A stretch of 35,946 bases of DNA from Planctomycetota bacterium (GCA_022563315.1 JADFNO010000018.1:1-35946); one strand, 5' to 3'. Shown: positions 14,690 through 26,595, numbered from the stretch's first letter. Notes: generated by a model not told the origin, from the letters alone. Program-made: numbers and translations.

Positions 14690-17600
14690 CTACTTGTCCT
14701 CTTCACTCACGCCCATACCACTTCGATCGGGGTCCTTCGGCCGAGTCGGCGGTGTATAGGGATTGGCCTCGATCTCGGCCAACATCAATTCGATCGCGGC
14801 ATCCAATTGCGGATCACCGCCATTGACCATCAATGCTGGATCGTCGATCACCTCGATGTCCGGGTCAACGCCGTGGCCTTCAACGCCCCACGTGCCGTCC
14901 TTCTCATAGAAGCCGAAGGTGGGCACGGTGACCGCGCCGCCGTCGATGAGGCGGGGGTTGCCGGAGATCCCGACCAGACCGCCCCAGGTGCGCGTACCAA
15001 TGATCTTGCCCAAACCGGCTTGTCGGAAATACCAGGGGAACAAGTCGCCGCCGGAGCCGGCCAGCCCGTTGATCAACATGCACTTGGGCCCATGATGCGC
15101 ATCGGGCGGCCAGGTCCAGTCTTTGGAATCGCGCCTGGCCCAGTAGTTCGTGACCGGGCGATTGAGAATCTCGATAAACCGCGTGGGAATCTGACCCCCG
15201 CCGTTCCAACGCTCATCGATGATCAACGCCTTCTTATCAATTTGACCAAAGAATTGGCGGACGAGATCGCTCTGGCCGTTGATGCCGGTGTTGGGCACGT
15301 AGATGTAACCGACCTCACCGCCACTTTTCTCATCGACGTAGGCGCGGTTATGCTCGATCCAGGCGCGATATCGCAGATTCGATTCGTTGGAGATCGTCTT
15401 GACCACAACGTCGCGCGCATCGTCATCAAGCTCAGGTTTCTCGCTGACGGTGATTGTGATCGTGCGACCGGCCAGCCCGACGAAGGCCGCCCACGGATCC
15501 TTTCTCGTATCAACCGGCACGCCGTTGACAGCGAGCAAGTAGTCACCTTCGTTGACGTCGATACCCTGTGCGCTAAGTGGACCGCGGGCATCGACGTCCC
15601 ACGGCGCGCCGCCGCAGATGCTACCCACACGGTAGGCGCCGTTATCAAGCTCCCAATCTACGCCGAGCATGCCGACGGAAACGCTCGGTTGACTCTCGAC
15701 ATCTCCGCCGCGGTAGTACGCGTGGCCGACGTTCAACTCGGCGATCATCTCCCGAATAACGTAGCTGACGTCCTCACGAGTGATGCAGTCGTCGAGCATC
15801 TTTGTGTAGTGTTCGCGCACGGCCAGCCAATCGACGCCGTGGAGGTTCGCAACGTAGAAGAAGTCGCGGTAGAGCCGCCAAGCTTCGGTGAACAGTTGCC
15901 GCCATTCTTCGCGCGGGTCGATCGAAACGTTCATCCCGGCTGTTACCACCTTCTTGCCGGTGGCTCCCGCCGAGGCCTTCTGGATCGTAGCGCTGTTGCC
16001 GCGGATCACGAGCAGCTTCTTTCCGTCACTTGAAATCTCAAATGTGGTTGCGCCGGTGACGACGCTCTTTTCCTCTTTCTTATCATCTTTGAGATCAAAG
16101 AGCTTGATCCCGGCGTCGCCGTCACCCAGCCGCGCGTAGATGAGCTGGTTCTTGTTGTTGACCGCCAACTGACCAAAGCTTCCGTTGGGTACAGGGAGGC
16201 TGAACGCACGACTTTCAAAGTCTTCGATCTCGATCTCGACCGTTTCGCGCGCATCCTCGTCTTCATCGGCATCTTTGTCGTCGTCGCCGCCGCCGGAAGT
16301 CCGCGTCGCCGTGACTTGCAGCACAACTCCCTCAACGTCCGCCGTCCCGGTCATGGTCGAGCCTTCGATCTTCAGCTCGAGCACCGCAATACTTCCGTCG
16401 GGGCGATTGACGGTAAGCGACAAGGTCTTGGCCTCTGGATCATAAGTTCCGTTGACCGGTCCGGTTCCGCCCTCTGCGGTGGCAGAACCGGTCACGGTGT
16501 TGTCGGCATGGAGGGTAAGCGACAGCGTGAAGTCGATCGCGCCTTCGGGCGTTTGGACGATGCAATCCCACGTGCCGGAGACGCCATCGTCCGCGACGGC
16601 CGCTTCCGGTTCGTCGTCATCGCCCTCGTCCGCCTCGGCTTCCTCGGCGTCTGCGTCCTCGTCGTCGGCTGCCTCGTCTTCAGCCTCTTCTTCTTCGTCT
16701 TCGTCCTTCCAATCCTCTTCGTCGCTCTCAGCCAGCCACGGCGCATCGACATCCGTCCGTAGCGGGACCGCGATCAGATTCTGGCTGTCCTTGTAGATGA
16801 AGGTCGTATCCACGTCCGAGTACGTTGGGCGGAACGTTCGGCTACTGGCGAAGTACAAATAATCGCCCTTGCGATCAAACACCGGCGATGCGTCGCCGAA
16901 CATGCCACTGGTTACCTGATGATGTTCATCAATCTGGACGTTGTACAGCCACACCGCCGGCACCGGCTTGTTGTCGTCCGTCTTGGCGTAGGTGATCCAC
17001 TGACTGTCGTGCGACCAGTTTGGTCGCGGGCGCGCTCCCCACGGATCTTTGTCGATGATCTTGGTCTCGCCGGATTCGATCGTGTGCAGGTACAGTTGCG
17101 CTGCCTTATCAGTAAACAGGATGTATTTGGAGTCCGGCGACCAGATCGGCTCGTAGTAATACGTCTCGCTGTTCGAGGTGAGCTGCTTCGTCTCACCTTT
17201 GCCATCGGACTGTGTGATGTAAAGCTCGTACTCGCCCGTGGCGTCTGAGAAATACGCGATCCATTGCTTGTCGGGGCTCCAACTCGGTTCGCGTTCGGCC
17301 ACGCCGCTCGTGCGGGTGAGGTTGCGCGGCGAGCCGTTCTCAGCCGGAAGTGTCCAAACATCACCCCGCGCTTCGACCACGGCTCGCTTGCCCGTGGACG
17401 ATATCTGCCACCATCGCGCGAACTTCGCCGCATCCACGCGCTTGTTGCGGATGGTCGGCCTCGCCCCCGGAATGGTCACGCTCACTTCGCGCGATTGGCG
17501 GGTGCGCAAATCCAAAAGGTACAAATTCGCCCCGTTCTGGAATATGATCTCGCCTTGTCCGCGATCGCCCGGACCGATGGAGGGCCACTTGACATCGTAG

Positions 17601-18394
17601 TCTGTGTATCGCGTGACCTGCTCGTGCTCATCGTCGTCCAGGTCGTATGACCAGAGGTTGAGTCGGTTTCCTTCGCCGCGGTCCGAGAGGTAGTACAGGC
17701 TGTCGCCGTGCCACATCGGAAGCGTGTCGGTTCCTTCCCAATCGGTGATCTTCCTTGACGTGAGATCGGAGAGATTGAACAGCCAGATGTCGGTCGCCAT
17801 GCCGCCGCGGTAGCGCTTCCATGTGCGGGCATCGCGGGTATGCGGGGTATAGGCGAGCCACTCGCCGTCCGCGCTGATCGCCCCTGCGGCGCCGTAGGGA
17901 ACCGGCACCTGTTGGGGAAGACCGCCTGCACTGGCGACCGTATACAACTTGGGCATGCGCCTGAGCCCTGATTGACCGTTGCTGTAGAAGAGCAAGCCGC
18001 CGTCCGGCGTCCAGTCACATAGCGTTTCGCCGGCCGGATGATGTGTCACCCGAACCGGAATTCCCCCGCCGGTGGGAATCGTGTAGAGGTCGCGGTTCCC
18101 GTCGTAGTTACCGACGAACGCAATCGTCTCGCCGTCGGCACTGAACTTGGCGAACAGCTCCTGACCGGGCGGGCTGACAAGTGGGCTGGCGGTGCCTCCC
18201 TCACGCGGCACAAGCCACAGATCGTTGGCATAGCCAAAGACGATGTGACTCTTGCCCACGTCCGGGTACCGCAGCATCCCCGGGTGAGGCTGAACGTCCG
18301 CGGCAACCGCCGACACAACTGGTACGAAGACGGCAGCGACGGCCATGCCGGACATCGCAGCAACACAATATGGGGAGACGGTAACGATCCTCAT
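14690..18394 (-). CDS. Tricorn-type S41 protease with acidic and beta-domain insert
   Basis: The 1234-residue protein has a signal peptide (about 1-31). A six-bladed WD40-like (PD40) propeller follows at about 40-300, for example FAKFSADGETIAFVGNYDG. A second propeller covers about 320-800, and then a helical core, a PDZ domain (about 900-985) and an S41 peptidase domain (about 1010-1190). Candidate catalytic residues by comparison with tricorn are His891 (NVGHAYYRGG), Ser1114 (LAGSGGD) and Glu1172 (VEGHGVDPD). Unusually, residues of about 556-715 interrupt the second propeller. This insert is a very acidic tract, then a small beta domain starting GVSGTWDCIV and ending LQVTATRT, then another acidic stretch. 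The enzyme probably degrades peptides in the periplasm. Confidence 0.93.
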   Translation of the reverse strand: MRIVTVSPYCVAAMSGMAVAAVFVPVVSAVAADVQPHPGMLRYPDVGKSHIVFGYANDLWLVPREGGTASPLVSPPGQELFAKFSADGETIAFVGNYDGNRDLYTIPTGGGIPVRVTHHPAGETLCDWTPDGGLLFYSNGQSGLRRMPKLYTVASAGGLPQQVPVPYGAAGAISADGEWLAYTPHTRDARTWKRYRGGMATDIWLFNLSDLTSRKITDWEGTDTLPMWHGDSLYYLSDRGEGNRLNLWSYDLDDDEHEQVTRYTDYDVKWPSIGPGDRGQGEIIFQNGANLYLLDLRTRQSREVSVTIPGARPTIRNKRVDAAKFARWWQISSTGKRAVVEARGDVWTLPAENGSPRNLTRTSGVAEREPSWSPDKQWIAYFSDATGEYELYITQSDGKGETKQLTSNSETYYYEPIWSPDSKYILFTDKAAQLYLHTIESGETKIIDKDPWGARPRPNWSHDSQWITYAKTDDNKPVPAVWLYNVQIDEHHQVTSGMFGDASPVFDRKGDYLYFASSRTFRPTYSDVDTTFIYKDSQNLIAVPLRTDVDAPWLAESDEEDWKDEDEEEEAEDEAADDEDADAEEAEADEGDDDEPEAAVADDGVSGTWDCIVQTPEGAIDFTLSLTLHADNTVTGSATAEGGTGPVNGTYDPEAKTLSLTVNRPDGSIAVLELKIEGSTMTGTADVEGVVLQVTATRTSGGGDDDKDADEDEDARETVEIEIEDFESRAFSLPVPNGSFGQLAVNNKNQLIYARLGDGDAGIKLFDLKDDKKEEKSVVTGATTFEISSDGKKLLVIRGNSATIQKASAGATGKKVVTAGMNVSIDPREEWRQLFTEAWRLYRDFFYVANLHGVDWLAVREHYTKMLDDCITREDVSYVIREMIAELNVGHAYYRGGDVESQPSVSVGMLGVDWELDNGAYRVGSICGGAPWDVDARGPLSAQGIDVNEGDYLLAVNGVPVDTRKDPWAAFVGLAGRTITITVSEKPELDDDARDVVVKTISNESNLRYRAWIEHNRAYVDEKSGGEVGYIYVPNTGINGQSDLVRQFFGQIDKKALIIDERWNGGGQIPTRFIEILNRPVTNYWARRDSKDWTWPPDAHHGPKCMLINGLAGSGGDLFPWYFRQAGLGKIIGTRTWGGLVGISGNPRLIDGGAVTVPTFGFYEKDGTWGVEGHGVDPDIEVIDDPALMVNGGDPQLDAAIELMLAEIEANPYTPPTRPKDPDRSGMGVSEEDK

Positions 18395-18587: not shown

Positions 18588-18653
18588 CTGCTCTGCTTGC
18601 TGCTTGCGGACAAAAGCAAACAGAAGCAACCGGATGTGAGCGCATGCATCAAA

Positions 18654-18725
18654 GCGGGCGAACGGACTCGAACCGTCAACATTCAGCTTGGAAGGCTGAC
18701 GCTCTACCAATTGAGCTACGCCCGC
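18654..18725 (-). tRNA. tRNA-Gly (anticodon TCC)
   Basis: The reverse strand folds as a complete tRNA of 72 nt. The acceptor stem is GCGGGCG with CGCCCGC. The D-arm contains GCTCAATTGGTAGAGC. The anticodon arm is TCAGC-CTTCCAA-GCTGA, giving anticodon TCC. The T-arm loop contains TTCGAGT. No CCA is encoded. A 5' fragment of the same tRNA occurs at 33045-33087. Confidence 0.97.
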
Positions 18726-19308: not shown

Positions 19309-19336
19309 GATAAATCAAGATATCCAGACCCACTAT

Positions 19337-19353
19337 TCTGAATTATATTCAGA
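19337..19353. promoter_or_regulatory. Perfect palindrome, putative operator of the Rrf2 regulator
   Basis: TCTGAATTATATTCAGA is a perfect inverted repeat: 7-bp arms and a 3-bp spacer. It sits in an unusually AT-rich tract (about 19310-19400), roughly 120 bp upstream of the Rrf2-type gene and pointing into the cytochrome cluster. Size and symmetry fit a site for a dimeric Rrf2 protein. Binding is inferred, not shown. Confidence 0.55.
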
Positions 19354-19472
19354 GTTTTCGATCTTTTTATCGTTATTAGTAGATATTTCGCCTATCATGC
19401 CGTAGTAATCCTCCGAGAGAGGACATAGGCCGAGCGACCGGAAGCTGAACGCTCCACTGCTGGGACCCGTCG

Positions 19473-19976
19473 ATGTATGGACGACGAACCGAATACGCCA
19501 TCGCCGTAATGAGTCGACTCGCCGAGGTATACGACGGGGGCGACACACGGCTTTGTGCCGCGGACGTTGCGGACTCGCGCGGCTTGCAGCAACCGTTCGT
19601 GGCGAAGGTCCTCTCGCAGCTCTCACAAGCCGGACTTGTGATCGGATCACGTGGACCGGGCGGTGGGTTCGCGCTGGCCCGCGATCCCAAGACAATCAAG
19701 CTCTACGACGTGTTCAAACTCTTCGAGCGCATCGATAGCGATGACACCTGTCCATTCGCAGAGGGACGATGCGGCGTCGGGCAGTCCTGCCCACTGCACG
19801 ACAATCTGGTCGCGGTAAAGAAGGCCATGGATCACCTTCTTCACGACACCACGTTTGAAGTATTCCGTATCGCGGCCACGAAGGGCCGACGGCGACCCGA
19901 ACCATCACGTACGCGAAAAACAACGCGAAAGAGAGAGTCCTATCGAGCACCGCGAGCAACCAAGCCTCGGCCGTAG
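19473..19976 (+). CDS. Rrf2-family Fe-S transcription regulator (IscR/NsrR-like)
   Basis: The 167-residue protein has an N-terminal winged helix: TEYAIAVMSRLAEVY, then QQPFVAKVLSQLSQAGLV and the wing SRGPGGGFALARDP, typical of Rrf2. It carries Cys93-x6-Cys100-x5-Cys106-x2-His109 (CPFAEGRCGVGQSCPLH), at the positions where IscR and NsrR hold an Fe-S cluster, including an IscR-like His. Such regulators sense Fe-S status, NO or redox state. The C-terminal tail (from about residue 133) is strongly basic and longer than usual. The gene lies 56 bp upstream of the cytochrome cluster on the same strand and downstream of a palindrome at 19337, so autoregulation and control of the cluster are likely (inference). 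Confidence 0.9.
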   Translation: MYGRRTEYAIAVMSRLAEVYDGGDTRLCAADVADSRGLQQPFVAKVLSQLSQAGLVIGSRGPGGGFALARDPKTIKLYDVFKLFERIDSDDTCPFAEGRCGVGQSCPLHDNLVAVKKAMDHLLHDTTFEVFRIAATKGRRRPEPSRTRKTTRKRESYRAPRATKPRP

Positions 19977-20032
19977 TCTCCTTTTTTCACCTGCCGGCGA
20001 CGGCGACCTCAGATTGATAGAATGGATCTGCA

Positions 20033-21301
20033 ATGACTGCTACCAACCTCGCACTCCAAACACGAGCTAGCGACGTGGAGCAAGTCGCCACGGCGACGGT
20101 AGACCAATGCGTCGCTCATGGTCGGTTGCCACAACTGTCCCACCACTTCGACACCATGCCACAGCAGTATGAAGCAGCGAAGCTGGGCATGTGGCTTTTC
20201 CTGGCCACGGAGGTTCTGTTGTTCGGTGGATTGTTCTGTTTGTACGCCGTGTATCGCGCGGGCCATCCCGACATCTTCGCCTATGGAAGTCAATTCCTGG
20301 ACACAACCTGGGGCGCTATCAACACCGGCGTATTGATTGTGAGCAGTCTGACCATGGCGATGGCGGTGTGGTGCGCTCAAAACAACTACCGCCGTGGACT
20401 GTGCTTGTTCCTTGGGCTCACGTTGCTGTGCGCGATCGACTTTCTCGGGATCAAATGGATCGAGTATTCACACAAGTTCCATGACAATCTCGTGTGGGGC
20501 ATGCAGTTCTACGAAGGAGAACATGCCGGCGACCGCGTACACGATCAAGAAGTCGACGCTGGCTTGGCGGCGATCGCAGCCCTTGCACCCGGCGATCCGG
20601 CCAGGGGCGGCGGGCTGTATTTGCGAACTTGCATGTCCTGCCACGGTCTTACGGGCGAAGGACTGCCGGGACTGGGCAAGCCTTTACAAACGAGTGAGTT
20701 CGTCGCCGGTCTCGATGATGCCAGCTTTGTTGCGTTCCTGATCGCTGGCCGGTCGCCAAAGGATCCGCTCAACACGACCGGCGCGGCGATGCTTCCACGG
20801 GGAGGCAACCCGAACCTGCGTGATCAGGATCTCATGGACATTGTCGCGCACGTGCGCATTCTGCAGACGAACGCCCTGACCGCAACGCCCGACGAACGGG
20901 GTGTTGCTGATGGCAAGCTTCCCATCGTGAACGGGCAATTGCTGCTGCCACAATCAGTCATTCCTTTAGCGCCTGATGGACCTTCGGGCTTGGCGTGGCG
21001 GCCGGACGAATCAGATCGGAATTACAGCATCCTCCAATCGAGCGCTGACGCGGCTCCAACAGCTCCCCTCGAACGACCGGCCAACGCACACCTGTTCTTT
21101 GCAATCTACTTCGGCATGACGGGGCTTCACGGCCTACATGTGCTCGCGGGCATCGGCGTCATCACGTGGCTGCTGATCCGCGCTCTAAAGGGACACTTTG
21201 ACAACGGCTATTTCACGCCCGTCGATCTGGGCGGGCTCTATTGGCACATCGTGGATGTCATTTGGATATTCCTTTTTCCCTTGCTCTACCTGATTCGATA
21301 G
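20033..21301 (+). CDS. Cytochrome c oxidase subunit III/NorE-like protein with inserted cytochrome c domain
   Basis: The 422-residue protein begins and ends as a subunit III/NorE protein. Helices lie at about 50-75 (KLGMWLFLATEVLLFGGLF), 92-113 (GAINTGVLIVSSLTMAMAVW) and 122-142. The last two are at 352-384 (FGMTGLHGLHVLAGIGVITW) and 400-421 (GLYWHIVDVIWIFLFPLLYL). Between them, residues of about 188-282 form a class I cytochrome c domain: heme site CMSCH at 200-204 and a candidate Met ligand in AAMLPRGG (about 253). The insert should face the periplasm. No subunit I or II gene adjoins, so it may serve an oxidase or NO reductase encoded elsewhere, as NorE does. The start lacks a strong ribosome binding site. 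Confidence 0.88.
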   Translation: MTATNLALQTRASDVEQVATATVDQCVAHGRLPQLSHHFDTMPQQYEAAKLGMWLFLATEVLLFGGLFCLYAVYRAGHPDIFAYGSQFLDTTWGAINTGVLIVSSLTMAMAVWCAQNNYRRGLCLFLGLTLLCAIDFLGIKWIEYSHKFHDNLVWGMQFYEGEHAGDRVHDQEVDAGLAAIAALAPGDPARGGGLYLRTCMSCHGLTGEGLPGLGKPLQTSEFVAGLDDASFVAFLIAGRSPKDPLNTTGAAMLPRGGNPNLRDQDLMDIVAHVRILQTNALTATPDERGVADGKLPIVNGQLLLPQSVIPLAPDGPSGLAWRPDESDRNYSILQSSADAAPTAPLERPANAHLFFAIYFGMTGLHGLHVLAGIGVITWLLIRALKGHFDNGYFTPVDLGGLYWHIVDVIWIFLFPLLYLIR

Positions 21302-21345
21302 GCGGCCCAACGATGCAACGACAAGCCATACAACGGAGTGACGTC

Positions 21346-22233
21346 ATGAGAAGAACAAATCCGCCGGTCGATACCGAGCGAAGCGTAATCGGATGGGAGT
21401 ACCTCGTCGCGGTCATCGTTGGGGTCATCGCTGTCTCGGTGTTCATTGCGGGCTGTCAGACGAAGGCATCCTTACCTTCTGAACCGACGATGAGCCCCAC
21501 CGTCTCTCCCGGCTCGGTGGGATATGAGCTTTTCCAAGCACATTGCGCTGCCTGTCACGGGACGAACGGTCGAGGCGATGGGATCGCGCGAATGGCGCTG
21601 GACGTCGCACCGCGCGATTTCCGCAACGAACCGTTCCGCTACGTCTCAACGATGGACGGCATCCCCACGCATGACGACCTTGTTCAATCGATCAAGAACG
21701 GGCGCGTGCACGGGCAAATGCCGGCCGGTCCCTGGCTGTCAGATGAAGCTGTAAATGCACTGGCGGATTACGTTTTGGAACTGAACCGGCTCGGTTGGGT
21801 TGACAGACTTACACAAGAGTTTGCTGACGATCAGGACATGACGCCTCGGGACATTGCAGAAATCGCCTTTGAGAGAGTCACAACCGAAGAGCCGATCGTC
21901 GTCGCGATGCCGAGCCCGCAGTTCCGCCCAAACCTTGCAAGCGGCAAGGTGTTGTTCATGGAAAGCTGCGCCGCATGCCACGGCCCGTCGGGTAAGGGCG
22001 ATGGACTGGACACGCCGCTCGACGAGTTGGGGCGACCCATCAAGGTGCGCGATTTGACCACCGACGCGATCCAAGGCGGATCGGACGTCTTTGAACTGTA
22101 CAAACGGATTCGCTGCGGCATACCCGGCACGCCGATGCCCGCGCAGCCGGCCATGACCAACGAACAAATCTGGCAACTCATCTTTTACACCCGCTCCCTC
22201 ATGGGGCAACCACTGGCTGGGCTCGAACGGTAG
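21346..22233 (+). CDS. Diheme c-type cytochrome, membrane-anchored
   Basis: I chose ATG 21346 because GGAG lies 7 nt upstream; ATG 21313 is an in-frame alternative. The 295-residue protein has an N-terminal hydrophobic segment (about 20-36) ending in FIAGC, which could be a lipobox or a plain anchor. Two class I cytochrome c domains follow, with heme sites CAACH at about 67-71 and 208-212. Each has the GxGDG loop after the heme site. Likely Met ligands are in HGQMPAGPW and GTPMPAQPAM. It would carry electrons in the periplasm between the neighbouring proteins. It starts 44 nt after the subunit III gene. Confidence 0.9.
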   Translation: MRRTNPPVDTERSVIGWEYLVAVIVGVIAVSVFIAGCQTKASLPSEPTMSPTVSPGSVGYELFQAHCAACHGTNGRGDGIARMALDVAPRDFRNEPFRYVSTMDGIPTHDDLVQSIKNGRVHGQMPAGPWLSDEAVNALADYVLELNRLGWVDRLTQEFADDQDMTPRDIAEIAFERVTTEEPIVVAMPSPQFRPNLASGKVLFMESCAACHGPSGKGDGLDTPLDELGRPIKVRDLTTDAIQGGSDVFELYKRIRCGIPGTPMPAQPAMTNEQIWQLIFYTRSLMGQPLAGLER

Positions 22234-22276
22234 CCGTTCACTTTCGGCAACCCCACCGATCAAAAGGAGATCACCA

Positions 22277-23050
22277 ATGAACACATTCCAACGCATTACA
22301 ACCTTCGGCCTCTTCAGCGTGCTACTTTTCGGAGCGGGACCGGTGAGCCCGAATGCACCAGATAAGTACACGCCAATTGATGTCGCCTCCGGCGGAACGA
22401 TCCGCGGTGTCGTGCGCTTCGACGGCGCCCGGCCACAGTTGGAGCAGGTTGATATCGCAACAAAAGAAGATGTCTGTCACAGCGAACCTGTCTATAGCGA
22501 AAAGCTCGTCGTGTCCAAGGAGATGCGAGTGCAGTGGGCGGTTGTGTCGCTTACGGACATCAAGACCGGCAAAGCGTTCCAAGAGCCCGAAGATCCGAAG
22601 GATCGACCGACACTGGATCAGAACGGCTGCGTCTTTAGTCCGCACGTTGTTCTTGTTGGGCATGGCAAGCCATTGAAACTGCTCAACAGTGACGGTGTTC
22701 TTCACAACGTCCACACCTGGCCGAAGAAGAACCGTTCAAAGAACATCGCAATGCCGGGGCCGGTCAAAGAAATGACCGTCAAATTCCGGCGTCCGGAGCG
22801 GATTCGCGTGAGTTGCGATATCCACCGCTGGATGGAAGCGTGGATCGTCGTCACGGAGCATCCGTACTACGCCGTGAGCGATGAAGCGGGCGAGTTTGAA
22901 CTCACCGACGTTCCGCCGGGCAACTACACACTTCGAGTGTGGCACGAAACGCTGGGCCAATTCGATCAGGAAGTCGAGGTCAAGGCGAACGCTGAGGCAT
23001 CGGTCGAGTTCGTTCTGAGCGAACGCGGCCAAAACTCAGGAGCGAATTAG
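22277..23050 (+). CDS. Periplasmic cupredoxin-like protein with carboxypeptidase-regulatory-like fold
   Basis: AAAAGGAG lies 8 nt upstream of ATG 22277. The 257-residue protein has a signal peptide (about 1-25). It resembles the methylamine-utilisation/cupredoxin-like group. A conserved DGVLHNVHTW is followed by SCDIHRWMEAW, where C-x2-H-x2-M plus the earlier His could form a type 1 or related copper site. The C-terminal 60 or so residues (AGEFELTDVPPGNYTLRVWHE) are a carboxypeptidase-regulatory-like beta domain. Copper binding is inferred from the ligand pattern. It would be a small electron carrier or copper protein serving the cytochromes in this cluster. Confidence 0.8.
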   Translation: MNTFQRITTFGLFSVLLFGAGPVSPNAPDKYTPIDVASGGTIRGVVRFDGARPQLEQVDIATKEDVCHSEPVYSEKLVVSKEMRVQWAVVSLTDIKTGKAFQEPEDPKDRPTLDQNGCVFSPHVVLVGHGKPLKLLNSDGVLHNVHTWPKKNRSKNIAMPGPVKEMTVKFRRPERIRVSCDIHRWMEAWIVVTEHPYYAVSDEAGEFELTDVPPGNYTLRVWHETLGQFDQEVEVKANAEASVEFVLSERGQNSGAN

Positions 23051-23051
23051 T

Positions 23052-24425
23052 ATGAACACAACACACACGTGTATCGCACTTGTTGGTCTGGCGTTGTGCA
23101 GCGGCGCAGCGCTCGGCCAGGGACAACCTCCAGGTGAAGGCTCGGTCTCCCGCGCGGAACATGAGGCGCTGAGGAGCGATCTGGAAACACTACGGGCTGA
23201 GATGGCGGCAATGCGCAAGGCTCGACAAGCCAACGAGCGTGCCGCGCATCAAGACGCCACACAGGCACCGACTTGGATCGAACTCGAACGAATGCGGCTT
23301 CGCCAGGACATGATCGAGCAAACGCTGCTCGAAGCCAGATATGGCGAATCCAATTTCCACTTCACGGGCTTTGCCTTTACGAGATTCACCAACGTCCAGG
23401 GTGCGGATTCTTCGTTCACAGCCGTGGTAGCGCCAATCATCCTGTGGGAGCTGAGCGATCGTCTGCTCTTTGAAACCGAGCTTGAGTTCGGGTTGGAGAC
23501 CGAAGACGGCGAAGGCAAAACCGAGGTCGAGCTTGAATACGCACACGCCTCCTACATCCTCAATGATTACGTCACGCTCGGAGCCGGCAAGTTTCTCACG
23601 CCGTTCGGCATCTTCGGCGAGCGCCTGCATCCGGCGTGGATCAACAAACTGCCGGACGCACCGCTGGCCTTCGGTCATCATGGCGGTCTTGTGCCCATGT
23701 CAAGTCTCGGCGCGTATGTTCGAGGCGGATTTCCGCTCGGTGACGCCAAGGGGAACTACGCCTTCTATCTTTCCAACGGACCGAGCCTGAACGTAGACGG
23801 CCACGGTGTGGGAACGCTCGATTTCGAGAACTTTGACGACATCAACAACAACAAAGCGTTCGGCGGACGGGTTGGATTCCTGCCTTTTCCCGAAATTGAA
23901 ATCGGCTACTCATTCCAGTTCGCAGATGTAACGCCCAGTGGCTTCGATCAGCAGGCAGATGCGCTGCTCCAATCGATCGACGTCAGCTACGTCACTGAAA
24001 GCGATCTGTTGGGCGGCCTCATCGACTTGCGATTCGAGTGGGTGTTCTCGGATGTCGATGATGTTGCTTTCGCCGCTGAAGAGGGAGGACATGCAGACGA
24101 AGGCGGGCATGCGGAGGAAGAAGAGGATGGAGATGAAGCGTTCATCACATTCAACAACGAGCGCAGCGGTGGGTATCTGCAATTGGCGTTTCGTCCGACG
24201 AAATCGGATATGGAATTCCTCCGCAATCTGGAGTTCGTCGGCCGATACGGCTGGCTCGATTTGCCAAGCGGGGCGCCGGACGCTTTCGATCAGGAACGGT
24301 GGACACTCGGCGTGAACTACTGGCTGAACCCCAGCACGGTCTTGAAGATTGCCTATGAACACACAGAGGTCGACGGCGGTGACGACTTTGACGCAGTCAA
24401 AGCCATGTTCGCTATCGGGTTCTAA
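23052..24425 (+). CDS. Outer-membrane beta-barrel (porin-like) protein with acidic His-containing loop
   Basis: The start lies 1 nt after the previous stop, with AGGAG inside the upstream gene. The 457-residue protein has a signal peptide (about 1-24), a coiled-coil-like stretch (about 33-100, EALRSDLETLRAEMAAMRKA), then a beta-rich part with alternating strands, ending VKAMFAIGF with the terminal Phe typical of barrel proteins. An extracellular-loop-like insert near residues 343-366 is rich in Glu, Asp, His and Gly (EEGGHADEGGHAEEEEDGDE) and could bind metal ions. The N-terminal coiled coil suggests trimerisation or a peptidoglycan contact. Its place among cytochromes suggests a route for a substrate or metal across the outer membrane (inference). 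Confidence 0.82.
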   Translation: MNTTHTCIALVGLALCSGAALGQGQPPGEGSVSRAEHEALRSDLETLRAEMAAMRKARQANERAAHQDATQAPTWIELERMRLRQDMIEQTLLEARYGESNFHFTGFAFTRFTNVQGADSSFTAVVAPIILWELSDRLLFETELEFGLETEDGEGKTEVELEYAHASYILNDYVTLGAGKFLTPFGIFGERLHPAWINKLPDAPLAFGHHGGLVPMSSLGAYVRGGFPLGDAKGNYAFYLSNGPSLNVDGHGVGTLDFENFDDINNNKAFGGRVGFLPFPEIEIGYSFQFADVTPSGFDQQADALLQSIDVSYVTESDLLGGLIDLRFEWVFSDVDDVAFAAEEGGHADEGGHAEEEEDGDEAFITFNNERSGGYLQLAFRPTKSDMEFLRNLEFVGRYGWLDLPSGAPDAFDQERWTLGVNYWLNPSTVLKIAYEHTEVDGGDDFDAVKAMFAIGF

Positions 24426-24439
24426 TAAGGACAACGAAG

Positions 24440-24775
24440 ATGACTACGAAAACAAACTCGCACAAGTCGATCCGGATCTTGTTCGTAGTGGGTCTGAGTT
24501 GGGCGGCCCTTCTCGGATGCAAGACCGAACAGCAGGTCGCTGACCGTCAACCCGACCCGGTCGCCATGAGTCAGATCGGTGACGAGGCCTCCTTAGCTAT
24601 CACAGGCGGTGCGAAATTGTGGGCACAGAACTGCATTCGATGCCACAACATCCGAAACCCAGCCTCGCTCAGCGATCGGCAGTGGGAAATTGTCCTCCAT
24701 CACATGCGCGTGAGAGCGAATCTCACCGCGCAAGAACATGAGTTGATTCTCGAATTCCTAAAGGCAGCAAACTGA
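24440..24775 (+). CDS. Small monoheme cytochrome c lipoprotein
   Basis: The 111-residue protein starts at ATG 24440 after AAGGA. The signal segment (FVVGLSWAALLGC) ends in a lipobox with Cys27. One heme site, CIRCH, lies at about residues 65-69. The rest is short: WEIVLHHMRVRANLTAQEH could supply a Met ligand. The stop shares a base with the next start (TGATG), so the two are coupled. Confidence 0.85.
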   Translation: MTTKTNSHKSIRILFVVGLSWAALLGCKTEQQVADRQPDPVAMSQIGDEASLAITGGAKLWAQNCIRCHNIRNPASLSDRQWEIVLHHMRVRANLTAQEHELILEFLKAAN

Positions 24776-26595
24776 TGCAGACGCTCCTGTACCGTTCCGT
24801 GCGCTGGCTCGGTTCATCCGATGGTGATCGGAAACTCTCGCCAATGGTTATGGCGATTCCGATCGTCGCGGTCTTCGGCCTGAACCTCCTGATCCTGGCC
24901 TATGCCGTGCGAATCAGCTTGCCGGAAGCTGTCGATGCCTCGGCAACTTCACAGGGCGCCGGCGACACGGGACTTGTGACCCAGAACACCGCGGTGACTG
25001 CAAATGTTTCAAGGTCGGCGTCGGGTAGCGCATCGGACGTCGGGAACACCGCGGCATTTGACATTGAGGACGACGAGTGGGATATGGAGCCGCTGCGTGT
25101 CGTCAATATCTTTGCGTTGCCAAGTGTTGCCGAAAGACGAGCGGACTACCTCCGCCATTGTGCATCTTGCCACGGCCCTGAGGGTGGCGGAAACGGTCCA
25201 GCGGCGGACTATCTCCTGCCCCCGCCTCGCGATTTCGTAGGCAGTCCATTTCGCTATTCATCTCCCGGAGCAGAGCAGGAGCACGTGCTCGCGGACCTTC
25301 AACGCACGATCACGCAAGGCGTGCCGCGCAGCGCCATGCCCGGGTTCGGCGGGGTGTTGACCGAAAGTCAAATTGCCGGCCTCGCTGAATATGTACATGC
25401 AATTCGTCAACAGGGTGAGCAAGTAGCGCTACCCGAGGAGGGCATTGGAGTCGGCGTGAGGCCGCCTATCACACCCGCACTCGTCGCGCGCGGCAAAGAA
25501 CTGTTCACCACGCTGGCCTGCAACACGTGCCATGGTGACTCGGGGCGAGGCGACGGGATGAACGCCGAGGCGCTGGTCGATTTCCAAGGGCGTCCGGTAC
25601 GACCGGCCGACTTCACCTCCGGTCTCTTCAAGACCGGTCAAACACCCGAGGATTTGTGCAGAACGATTCTCTCCGGCGTCCCCGGCACGCCGATGGTCGC
25701 CTATGAGGCCGCCGTCACGCAAGACAATGACGATGACGAGGAGACCGTCAACACGTTGGATGCCTGGGCGTTGGTCAGCTACATCAGAAGCCTTCGATCC
25801 GCGCCTCAACCGCCTGGCCGAGCTTCCGGTGCATTGATTGAAGTTCGCCATGCTGCGGACGAGGGCATGATGGCGGACCCGACGCATATCGCCTGGCTGG
25901 GTGTTTGCCCGACGCTGGTTGCCGTAAAACCCTTGCAGCATCGACCGGAAGAGACGACGTCGATTGCCGTACGCGCCGTCCGCACGGCTGAGCAGCTTGC
26001 GATCTGTTTAGAGTGGCAGGACGAGACGCTCGATCTGGCGCGCGGCAATGAGGTGTACCCGGACGCGGCTGCCATGACATTCGGGCTAGGCGACGAGCCG
26101 CCACCGCTTCCGATCGGACTCGGTGTGGAAGATGATAGGTCGGGAGACCCGGTCAATATCTGGCACTGGTCAGCGGATCGACAATATGAGGTGACAACAG
26201 GACAGCCCAGCGCACTCGTGGCCGCAAGTGAATTACAGGGCGATTGGTATCTATTTGTGCAGGGATCAACCGCGAAGATACCCGAGGTTGAGCCGATCGA
26301 TCAGCCTGACCGTGCAATAGCGATCCGCGCCACGCTCGACGCCAATGCACATGGCCTTGGTCCGATCGTCATCCAACCGCCGTCATCACAACACACGTCC
26401 ACGACCGCAACCTGGTCAGGCGGCATGTGGCGGATCGTGATCGTTCGATCGCTGTCATCTGCGGATGAGCAAGATGTGCAGTTCACATCCGCCCGGCGCA
26501 TTCCAGTTTCGTTCGCTCTCTACAACGGCTCGAAAGGAGATCACGCAGCCGTCAAGCTCGTCTCCGCCTGGCACTGGCTGGAGGTGATGCCGTAA
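24775..26595 (+). CDS. Diheme cytochrome c fused to an ethylbenzene-dehydrogenase-gamma-like heme b domain
   Basis: The 606-residue protein has one N-terminal membrane helix (about 25-45). Two cytochrome c domains follow, with heme sites CASCH at about 129-133 and CNTCH at about 249-253. The remaining 250 residues match the ethylbenzene dehydrogenase/DMSO-reductase-family gamma subunit: AIRAVRTAEQL-type strands, GDPVNIWHWSADRQYEV, and the closing SFALYNGSKGDHAAVKLVSAWHWLEV. In that family the gamma subunit holds a heme b, often with Met and Lys ligands. The usual partners (molybdenum alpha and Fe-S beta subunits) are not here. As a fusion it could pass electrons from c hemes to b heme or back. 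It is the last gene of the cluster. Confidence 0.87.
   Translation: MQTLLYRSVRWLGSSDGDRKLSPMVMAIPIVAVFGLNLLILAYAVRISLPEAVDASATSQGAGDTGLVTQNTAVTANVSRSASGSASDVGNTAAFDIEDDEWDMEPLRVVNIFALPSVAERRADYLRHCASCHGPEGGGNGPAADYLLPPPRDFVGSPFRYSSPGAEQEHVLADLQRTITQGVPRSAMPGFGGVLTESQIAGLAEYVHAIRQQGEQVALPEEGIGVGVRPPITPALVARGKELFTTLACNTCHGDSGRGDGMNAEALVDFQGRPVRPADFTSGLFKTGQTPEDLCRTILSGVPGTPMVAYEAAVTQDNDDDEETVNTLDAWALVSYIRSLRSAPQPPGRASGALIEVRHAADEGMMADPTHIAWLGVCPTLVAVKPLQHRPEETTSIAVRAVRTAEQLAICLEWQDETLDLARGNEVYPDAAAMTFGLGDEPPPLPIGLGVEDDRSGDPVNIWHWSADRQYEVTTGQPSALVAASELQGDWYLFVQGSTAKIPEVEPIDQPDRAIAIRATLDANAHGLGPIVIQPPSSQHTSTTATWSGGMWRIVIVRSLSSADEQDVQFTSARRIPVSFALYNGSKGDHAAVKLVSAWHWLEVMP

Follow-up and report, generated by a model that had tools for sequence, protein, structure and literature searches.

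A contig of 35,946 nt from the Planctomycetota bacterium GCA_022563315.1 (JADFNO010000018.1:1-35946; the whole stretch is referred to as the window) carries seven genes for a regulator and a set of electron-transfer proteins between nt 19473 and 26595. There is an even chance, in our judgement, that this cluster, which would stem partly from an operon for nitrite oxidoreductase (NXR), encodes a relay of electrons in the periplasm that has lost the catalytic subunits, gained an outer-membrane end, and feeds an aa3-type cytochrome c oxidase by way of COX3c, a COX3-family protein with a built-in cytochrome c domain. The evidence, all from sequence, is the gene content and order, the homology of several parts with those of NXR operons, a shared upstream motif, the loss of the heme-b Met ligand, purifying selection, and an aa3 oxidase as the sole heme-copper oxidase found in one of the genomes with the cluster.

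Gene content of the cluster

The window is part of a metagenome-assembled genome (MAG), here G000, which most likely belongs to the class Phycisphaerae, judging by its named relatives. Related clusters were found in two MAGs of the same genus (G001 and G002) and in one of a second genus (G014). Protein families were assigned from the scores of the window proteins against Pfam and NCBIfam models. The features are as follows.

19315–19330, plus strand: conserved upstream motif TCAAGATAnnCAGACC, exact in the window, G001, OFTM33 and G601, one mismatch in G014
19337–19353, plus strand: palindrome TCTGAAT-TAT-ATTCAGA, candidate Rrf2 operator
19473–19976, plus strand: Rrf2-family regulator of the Fe-S type (TIGR00738, 81.4 bits; three-Cys pattern)
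20033–21301, plus strand: COX3c, COX3-family protein with five transmembrane (TM) segments and a cytochrome c domain (PF00510, 50.5 bits)
21313–22233, plus strand: diheme cytochrome c lipoprotein (two CAACH motifs, two cytochrome c domains; lipobox FIAGC by eye)
22277–23050, plus strand: cupredoxin with type-1 copper ligands (LHNVH, C-x2-H-x2-M) and a C-terminal carboxypeptidase-regulatory domain
23052–24425, plus strand: outer-membrane porin, N-terminal coiled coil and 16-strand barrel (AlphaFold2 model; Porin_O_P)
24440–24775, plus strand: monoheme cytochrome c lipoprotein (CIRCH, cytochrome c domain; lipobox LLGC by eye)
24775–26595, plus strand: membrane-anchored fusion of a diheme cytochrome c with an NxrC/EbdC-type heme-b domain (PF09459, EB_dh, 83 bits)

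The start of the diheme gene is most likely at 21313. Successive genes are separated by 56, 11, 43, 1, 14 and -1 bases, and the tightly spaced, same-strand set of seven genes headed by Rrf2 agrees with an earlier description made from the sequence alone (the sequence-only reading). That reading counted five CxxCH sites; there are six, one each in COX3c and the monoheme lipoprotein and two each in the diheme protein and the fusion, with no more than two in any protein. It also stated that a terminal enzyme was missing. No gene for oxidase subunit I, NorB or a molybdenum subunit lies within the cluster, so the statement is true of the cluster itself, but relatives show that COX3c and the fusion normally accompany molybdoenzymes of the NXR or nitrate reductase (NAR) type.

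Correspondence with NXR operons

The inner half of the cluster (Rrf2, COX3c and the fusion) matches, by sequence, the regulator gene and the two leading genes of the NXR operons that related Phycisphaerae carry. One of these is in OFTM33 (Phycisphaerales), a MAG described by Suarez et al. 2023, who reported putative Nxr genes there (PMC10732223). In OFTM33, G554 and G601 a divergent Rrf2 gene is followed by COX3c, the fusion, NxrA, NxrB and a chaperone gene, with one or two small genes separating NxrA from NxrB, and a short contig of G266 carries COX3c, the fusion and NxrA. The window regulator therefore has its counterpart in this operon, and the two genes that open the operon correspond to the first and last structural genes of the window cluster. 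Against OFTM33 the protein identities are 53% (Rrf2), 57% (COX3c) and 47% (fusion, whole protein), and the upstream motif is shared; the OFTM33 operon differs in continuing from the fusion into the catalytic and chaperone genes, and in having no cupredoxin, porin and lipoprotein block. Its NxrA matches Kuenenia NxrA over the full length with 1451 bits, compared with 216 for the perchlorate-reductase type and 109 for NarG, and carries a twin-arginine translocation (Tat) motif.

The N-terminal half of the fusion matches 6h5l_B (E 8e-43) and residues 396–604 match NXR subunit C (7b04_C, E 3e-20). Its architecture, two CxxCH motifs plus EB_dh, equals that of Nitrospina 'alt_NxrC', which joins two c hemes and a heme-b domain of the dimethyl sulfoxide (DMSO) reductase type in one protein (PMC3578206), and the same layout occurs on Nitrospina contigs. 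A profile of the fusion recovered relatives in many Planctomycetota and also in Nitrospinota, NC10, Verrucomicrobia and other groups; NxrA/NxrB-like genes are very frequent neighbours. In Kuenenia NXR, the b heme is held by Met155 and Lys305 (PMC8387239). Across 111 aligned rows, some of them near-duplicates, the Met column holds Met in 106, Trp in one anammox protein and Ile in four. The four with Ile are exactly the fusions of the clusters that stand without an NXR (the orphan clusters), all of which keep the Lys (Lys594 in the window), while the NXR-linked fusions beside COX3c in OFTM33, G554, G601 and G266 all have Met. The fusion thus has the EbdC/NxrC-type domain of an NXR gamma subunit with an incomplete Met/Lys ligand pair. 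The candidate b heme of the sequence-only reading is upheld as regards an NxrC-like domain and its Lys, but with Ile in place of Met the heme itself is doubtful. The ratio of nonsynonymous to synonymous substitution rates (dN/dS) is 0.16–0.19 in the heme-b half of the window protein, which is constrained, but less so than the diheme half (0.02–0.06). In the orphan-cluster fusions the b heme may be lost or five-coordinate, leaving the c hemes to carry the function. In Candidatus Anammoxibacter OFTM214 (L103), two fusions with unusual residues at the heme-b ligand columns (Trp/Met and Met/His) are encoded next to cupredoxins and cytochromes.

The likeness extends to the electron-transfer sets that accompany NXR in Kuenenia, Nitrospira and Nitrospina, with their cupredoxins and their cytochromes of one or two hemes (PMC3578206). 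Compared with these, the cluster is without NxrA, NxrB and the bd-like oxidase, has Ile for the Met ligand, and adds COX3c and the porin.

COX3c and its genomic settings

The cytochrome c domain of COX3c (CMSCH at residue 200) is placed in the loop between TM3 and TM4, which should be periplasmic by the topology of COX3. The complete c-heme site (C200, C203, H204 and M253) is kept in at least 15 of 16 COX3c homologues, as are the residues of the COX3 fold, in keeping with a relative of aa3 subunit III. Of the earlier description as a subunit III/NorE-like protein with built-in cytochrome c, the COX3 fold and the c domain stand; the best scores are to subunit III models of aa3 and quinol oxidases, NorE not being among the models. 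A COX3-family gene lies near norCB in P. aeruginosa (PMC8756737), and COX3c resembles NorE and the subunit III proteins of nor clusters in being a COX3-family protein within nitrogen-oxide gene clusters; it differs from them in the built-in c heme and in its best-scoring models. No description of a COX3 protein with an inserted cytochrome c was found in the open-access literature. In a tree of COX3 and COX3c sequences, COX3c forms one side of a weakly supported branch (46/95), and a single origin is possible.

COX3c occurs in 11 of 397 genomes of the class. It belongs to NXR operons in G554 and G601 (and in OFTM33 and G266), lies by narGHJI in G673 and G001, is part of another type II DMSO-reductase operon in G023, and is found by moeA-mobA in G457 (by eye) and at contig edges or in other contexts in G020 and G698. 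Three Phycisphaerae (G011, G021, G537) have it as the last gene after nosZ-nosD-nosF-nosY (L186, 9389–10777; L192, 9264–10574; L193, 936–2114, where nosL was confirmed), and its sequence context there makes a membrane cytochrome for N2O reductase possible. Its occurrence beside NXR, narGHJI and nosZDFY genes suggests that several nitrogen-cycle enzymes use the same membrane-held cytochrome. The route from NXR-like enzymes to the terminal oxidase is a matter of debate, and the structure from Kuenenia does not reveal which partner the heme-b subunit has (PMC8387239); the presence of COX3c beside an NxrC-like fusion in four NXR operons makes it a testable candidate.

The Rrf2 regulator and upstream DNA

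The regulator scores 81 bits against the Rrf2 superfamily model (cut-off 73), and its three-Cys pattern (C93-x6-C-x5-C) is common to six homologues adjoining NXR, NAR or orphan clusters, consistent with the Fe-S type proposed earlier. The NO-sensing NsrR had also been suggested. Although three Cys are present, the protein reaches only 35.3 bits with the NCBIfam NsrR equivalog (cut-off 182), far under the cut-off, and this identity was rejected.

The palindrome noted before Rrf2 was found again at 19337–19353, with a chance expectation of 0.04 per window at up to two mismatches. It stands downstream of TCAAGATAnnCAGACC. In G001 and G014 it is imperfect with one extra spacer base, and a similar inverted repeat (TCTGAA-ATAA-TTCAGA) lies upstream of Rrf2 in the NXR operon of G554. 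Motif TCAAGATAnnCAGACC itself precedes the Rrf2 genes of the window and of the other genomes listed with it above (OFTM33 at L043); in G001 it has the Rrf2 gene on one side and narG on the other, in OFTM33 the Rrf2 gene and COX3c. Its chance expectation within the window is 0.00, and across about 4.7 Mb of retrieved DNA, with both strands scanned and redundant copies included, exact matches were at such loci, the narG region of G002 included. The Rrf2 genes of the window and G014 are far closer (dS 0.28) than the structural genes (0.6–1.1), hinting at a separate transfer or recombination of the regulator gene.

Conservation of the cluster

A search of other genomes for the gene order, as the sequence-only reading had proposed, found all six structural genes in the same order in G001 (93–97% protein identity) and G014 (about 70–84%); the G002 contig starts inside the diheme gene and carries the last five. 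Between the window and its relatives, dN/dS is 0.09–0.34 for all seven genes. Conserved order together with these ratios indicates that the cluster is a maintained unit and not a chance neighbourhood. A decaying NXR-operon remnant without present function, as the missing catalytic genes, the lost Met ligand and the rearranged locus might suggest, is very improbable given seven intact genes in two genera under these constraints, strongest in the diheme half of the fusion.

The outer block

The diheme, cupredoxin, porin and lipoprotein genes are a conserved block separate from the NXR-related half. In G594 (L238) they occur in the window order, with kinase and regulator genes alongside. The possible copper site reported earlier has the type-1 ligands (His, Cys, His, Met), which are kept in nine aligned cupredoxin homologues; in Zixibacteria, in NC10 and on an anammox contig, such homologues have NXR or NxrC-like genes nearby. 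Matches of the cupredoxin in the PDB are weak (best E 0.03).

The porin match to Porin_O_P is weak (21.5, cut-off 20.9), as are matches of its profile to the PDB, and the protein has no CxxCH. An AlphaFold2 model from 16 sequences (pLDDT 75) has 16 strands of at least 8 residues; an earlier model from four sequences (pLDDT 28) was discarded. With Foldseek, general porins of the OmpC/OmpU/OmpM1 type are closest to the model (E about 1e-11). Relatives of the porin are present in 33 other genomes of the class, and a small cytochrome lipoprotein adjoins the porin in 11 of the 12 other loci examined. Six of the 12 loci lie behind an Fe-S protein; NrfD was confirmed by Pfam in L242, the one examined.

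Two further arrangements were seen at such loci. Downstream of the block in L238 (5584–7272) is a hexaheme cytochrome, one diheme half of which resembles the diheme protein of the window. In several Phycisphaerae families (L235, L237, L239, L240, L242, L243), modules consist of a Tat-type Fe-S protein, an NrfD-like membrane protein, cytochrome c, porin and cytochrome lipoprotein, an arrangement suggestive of an electron unit at the outer membrane with a link to quinones.

Partner enzymes and proposed electron path

NarG (TIGR01580) was not found in G000 or G014, and was present in G001, G002 and the control genomes. NxrA had no match in G000 or G014, with G027 matching as positive control; the three molybdopterin matches of G000 are a NuoG-like protein, a 922-aa protein linked with Fe-S and cytochrome proteins, and a 725-aa protein, none of them NxrA-like. 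A NorB-like protein is encoded in G000 (on another contig, with a diheme partner), G001 and G002, sharing a contig with the cluster only in G001, and had no match in G014. NosZ was absent from all four cluster genomes, the only match being a weak one in the CuA-like C-terminal part, beside cox genes. NosZ was therefore rejected as partner, and, from their absence in G014, NorB and NarG as obligate partners: as far as the 96% completeness of G014 allows, the orphan cluster has no nitrogen-oxide enzyme as obligate partner. The one heme-copper oxidase found in G014 is aa3; the NXR genome G601 (a single contig) likewise has only one heme-copper oxidase.

For the relay, we infer the direction of flow, the docking of COX3c on aa3, the kind of donor and control by Rrf2. 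The donor would be encoded outside the cluster; most likely it would either act at the outer membrane or further out, or be soluble and periplasmic. Its electrons would pass to the cytochrome lipoprotein, the diheme protein and the cupredoxin, from these to the c hemes of the fusion, and onwards by the c heme in COX3c to aa3, which COX3c would join as an alternative subunit III. The orphan cluster shows that NXR-type wiring can be kept without NXR.

Several observations weigh against this relay. The orphan set comprises four genomes of two genera, all of them MAGs. Adjacency of Rrf2 is not constant, the gene lying past the far end of the cluster in G014. Since G014 is 96% complete, an unassembled nar or nxr operon is possible there. 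Finally, because nosZDFY needs electron flow towards the enzyme, COX3c may be no oxidase subunit but a cytochrome of general use held in the membrane.

It is possible, though fairly unlikely, that the cluster is instead an accessory chain of nitrogen-oxide respiration, serving NarGHI or a nitric oxide reductase (NOR)-like oxidase encoded elsewhere and carrying electrons to or from nitrate, nitrite or NO, the nar genes of the window genome having been lost or left unassembled. One contig of G001 joins the cluster to narGHJI-narK-narK2, which is divergent from Rrf2 and a second COX3c gene (COX3c2), and to an adjoining NorB/NorC-like pair, with genes for a sensor kinase and a response regulator separating COX3c2 from the cluster; the nar/nor set recurs in G002, there on a contig other than that of the cluster, and the narGHJI and nosZDFY settings of COX3c point the same way. 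This is countered by G014, where the intact cluster is under purifying selection without NarG, NorB-like, NxrA or NosZ matches, and by the window genome without NarG. The NO- or redox-linked respiration of the sequence-only reading accordingly survives in part: the nitrogen-oxide link is seen in COX3c, the fusion and Rrf2 (with its upstream motif) at NXR and in COX3c at narGHJI and nosZDFY, but its NsrR/NO component is not supported, given the NsrR score and G014.

Electron uptake across the outer membrane, with the porin and monoheme lipoprotein as a split analogue of Cyc2 passing electrons from a donor such as Fe(II) through cupredoxin and diheme protein to aa3, is unlikely. The rus region of A. 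ferrooxidans does have the same kinds of parts, an outer-membrane porin with one heme, a diheme cytochrome, a cupredoxin, a subunit III, a nearby Rrf2 gene (ctaR) and a two-component system (PMC2754497), and the 16-strand barrel, the porin-cytochrome pairs (several behind an Fe-S protein) and the block order in G594 also fit. The likeness is at the level of the parts list. In the window the porin and heme are on separate proteins, the cluster has no coxBA, an NxrC-like fusion is added, subunit III contains a heme, and the barrel resembles general diffusion porins. Membership of Cyc2 was rejected, as CXXCH is missing from the porin and AXPXFAR[Q/K][T/Y] from the lipoprotein, the barrel alone fitting. 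MtrCAB/PioAB was likewise rejected for lack of a multiheme cytochrome.

A combined scheme, in which NXR output parts form a wire from outer membrane to oxidase (extracellular donor, split porin and monoheme lipoprotein, cupredoxin and diheme protein, Met-less fusion, COX3c, aa3), is doubtful. If true, COX3c would be a general plug joining varied nitrogen-oxide and extracellular redox systems to the respiratory chain.

The Rrf2-COX3c junction and neighbouring genes

The direct junction of Rrf2 with COX3c is particular to the window contig. The order in G001 is Rrf2, COX3c2, transposase, sensor kinase, response regulator, a second small regulator, and then COX3c1 with the cluster. The first 50 or so codons of the window COX3c match COX3c2 of G001 and the remainder matches COX3c1; the longest identical run between these two paralogues is 26 bases, at the switch point. 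Contig C204 of G000 carries a norCB-like pair, transposase, kinase, regulators and a 5′ stub of COX3c1, without nar genes. The junction is either a real COX3c2/COX3c1 recombinant or an assembly chimera.

The NorB/CcoN-like heme-copper protein with its diheme partner (G000:C204, L038 2128–4427; G001, L031 12399–14698) had no PDB match at E 0.01 and no match to NCBIfam NOR models, and may be a member of divergent NOR families. In the narGHJI-narK operon of G001, NarI is fused to two cytochrome c motifs (L031, 6586–8364). Upstream of the cluster, the window encodes a Tricorn-type protease interrupted mid-protein by a long, acidic insertion of low complexity (14690–18394) and a tRNA-Gly (TCC) on the minus strand (18653–18725), where overlapping open reading frame calls are spurious.

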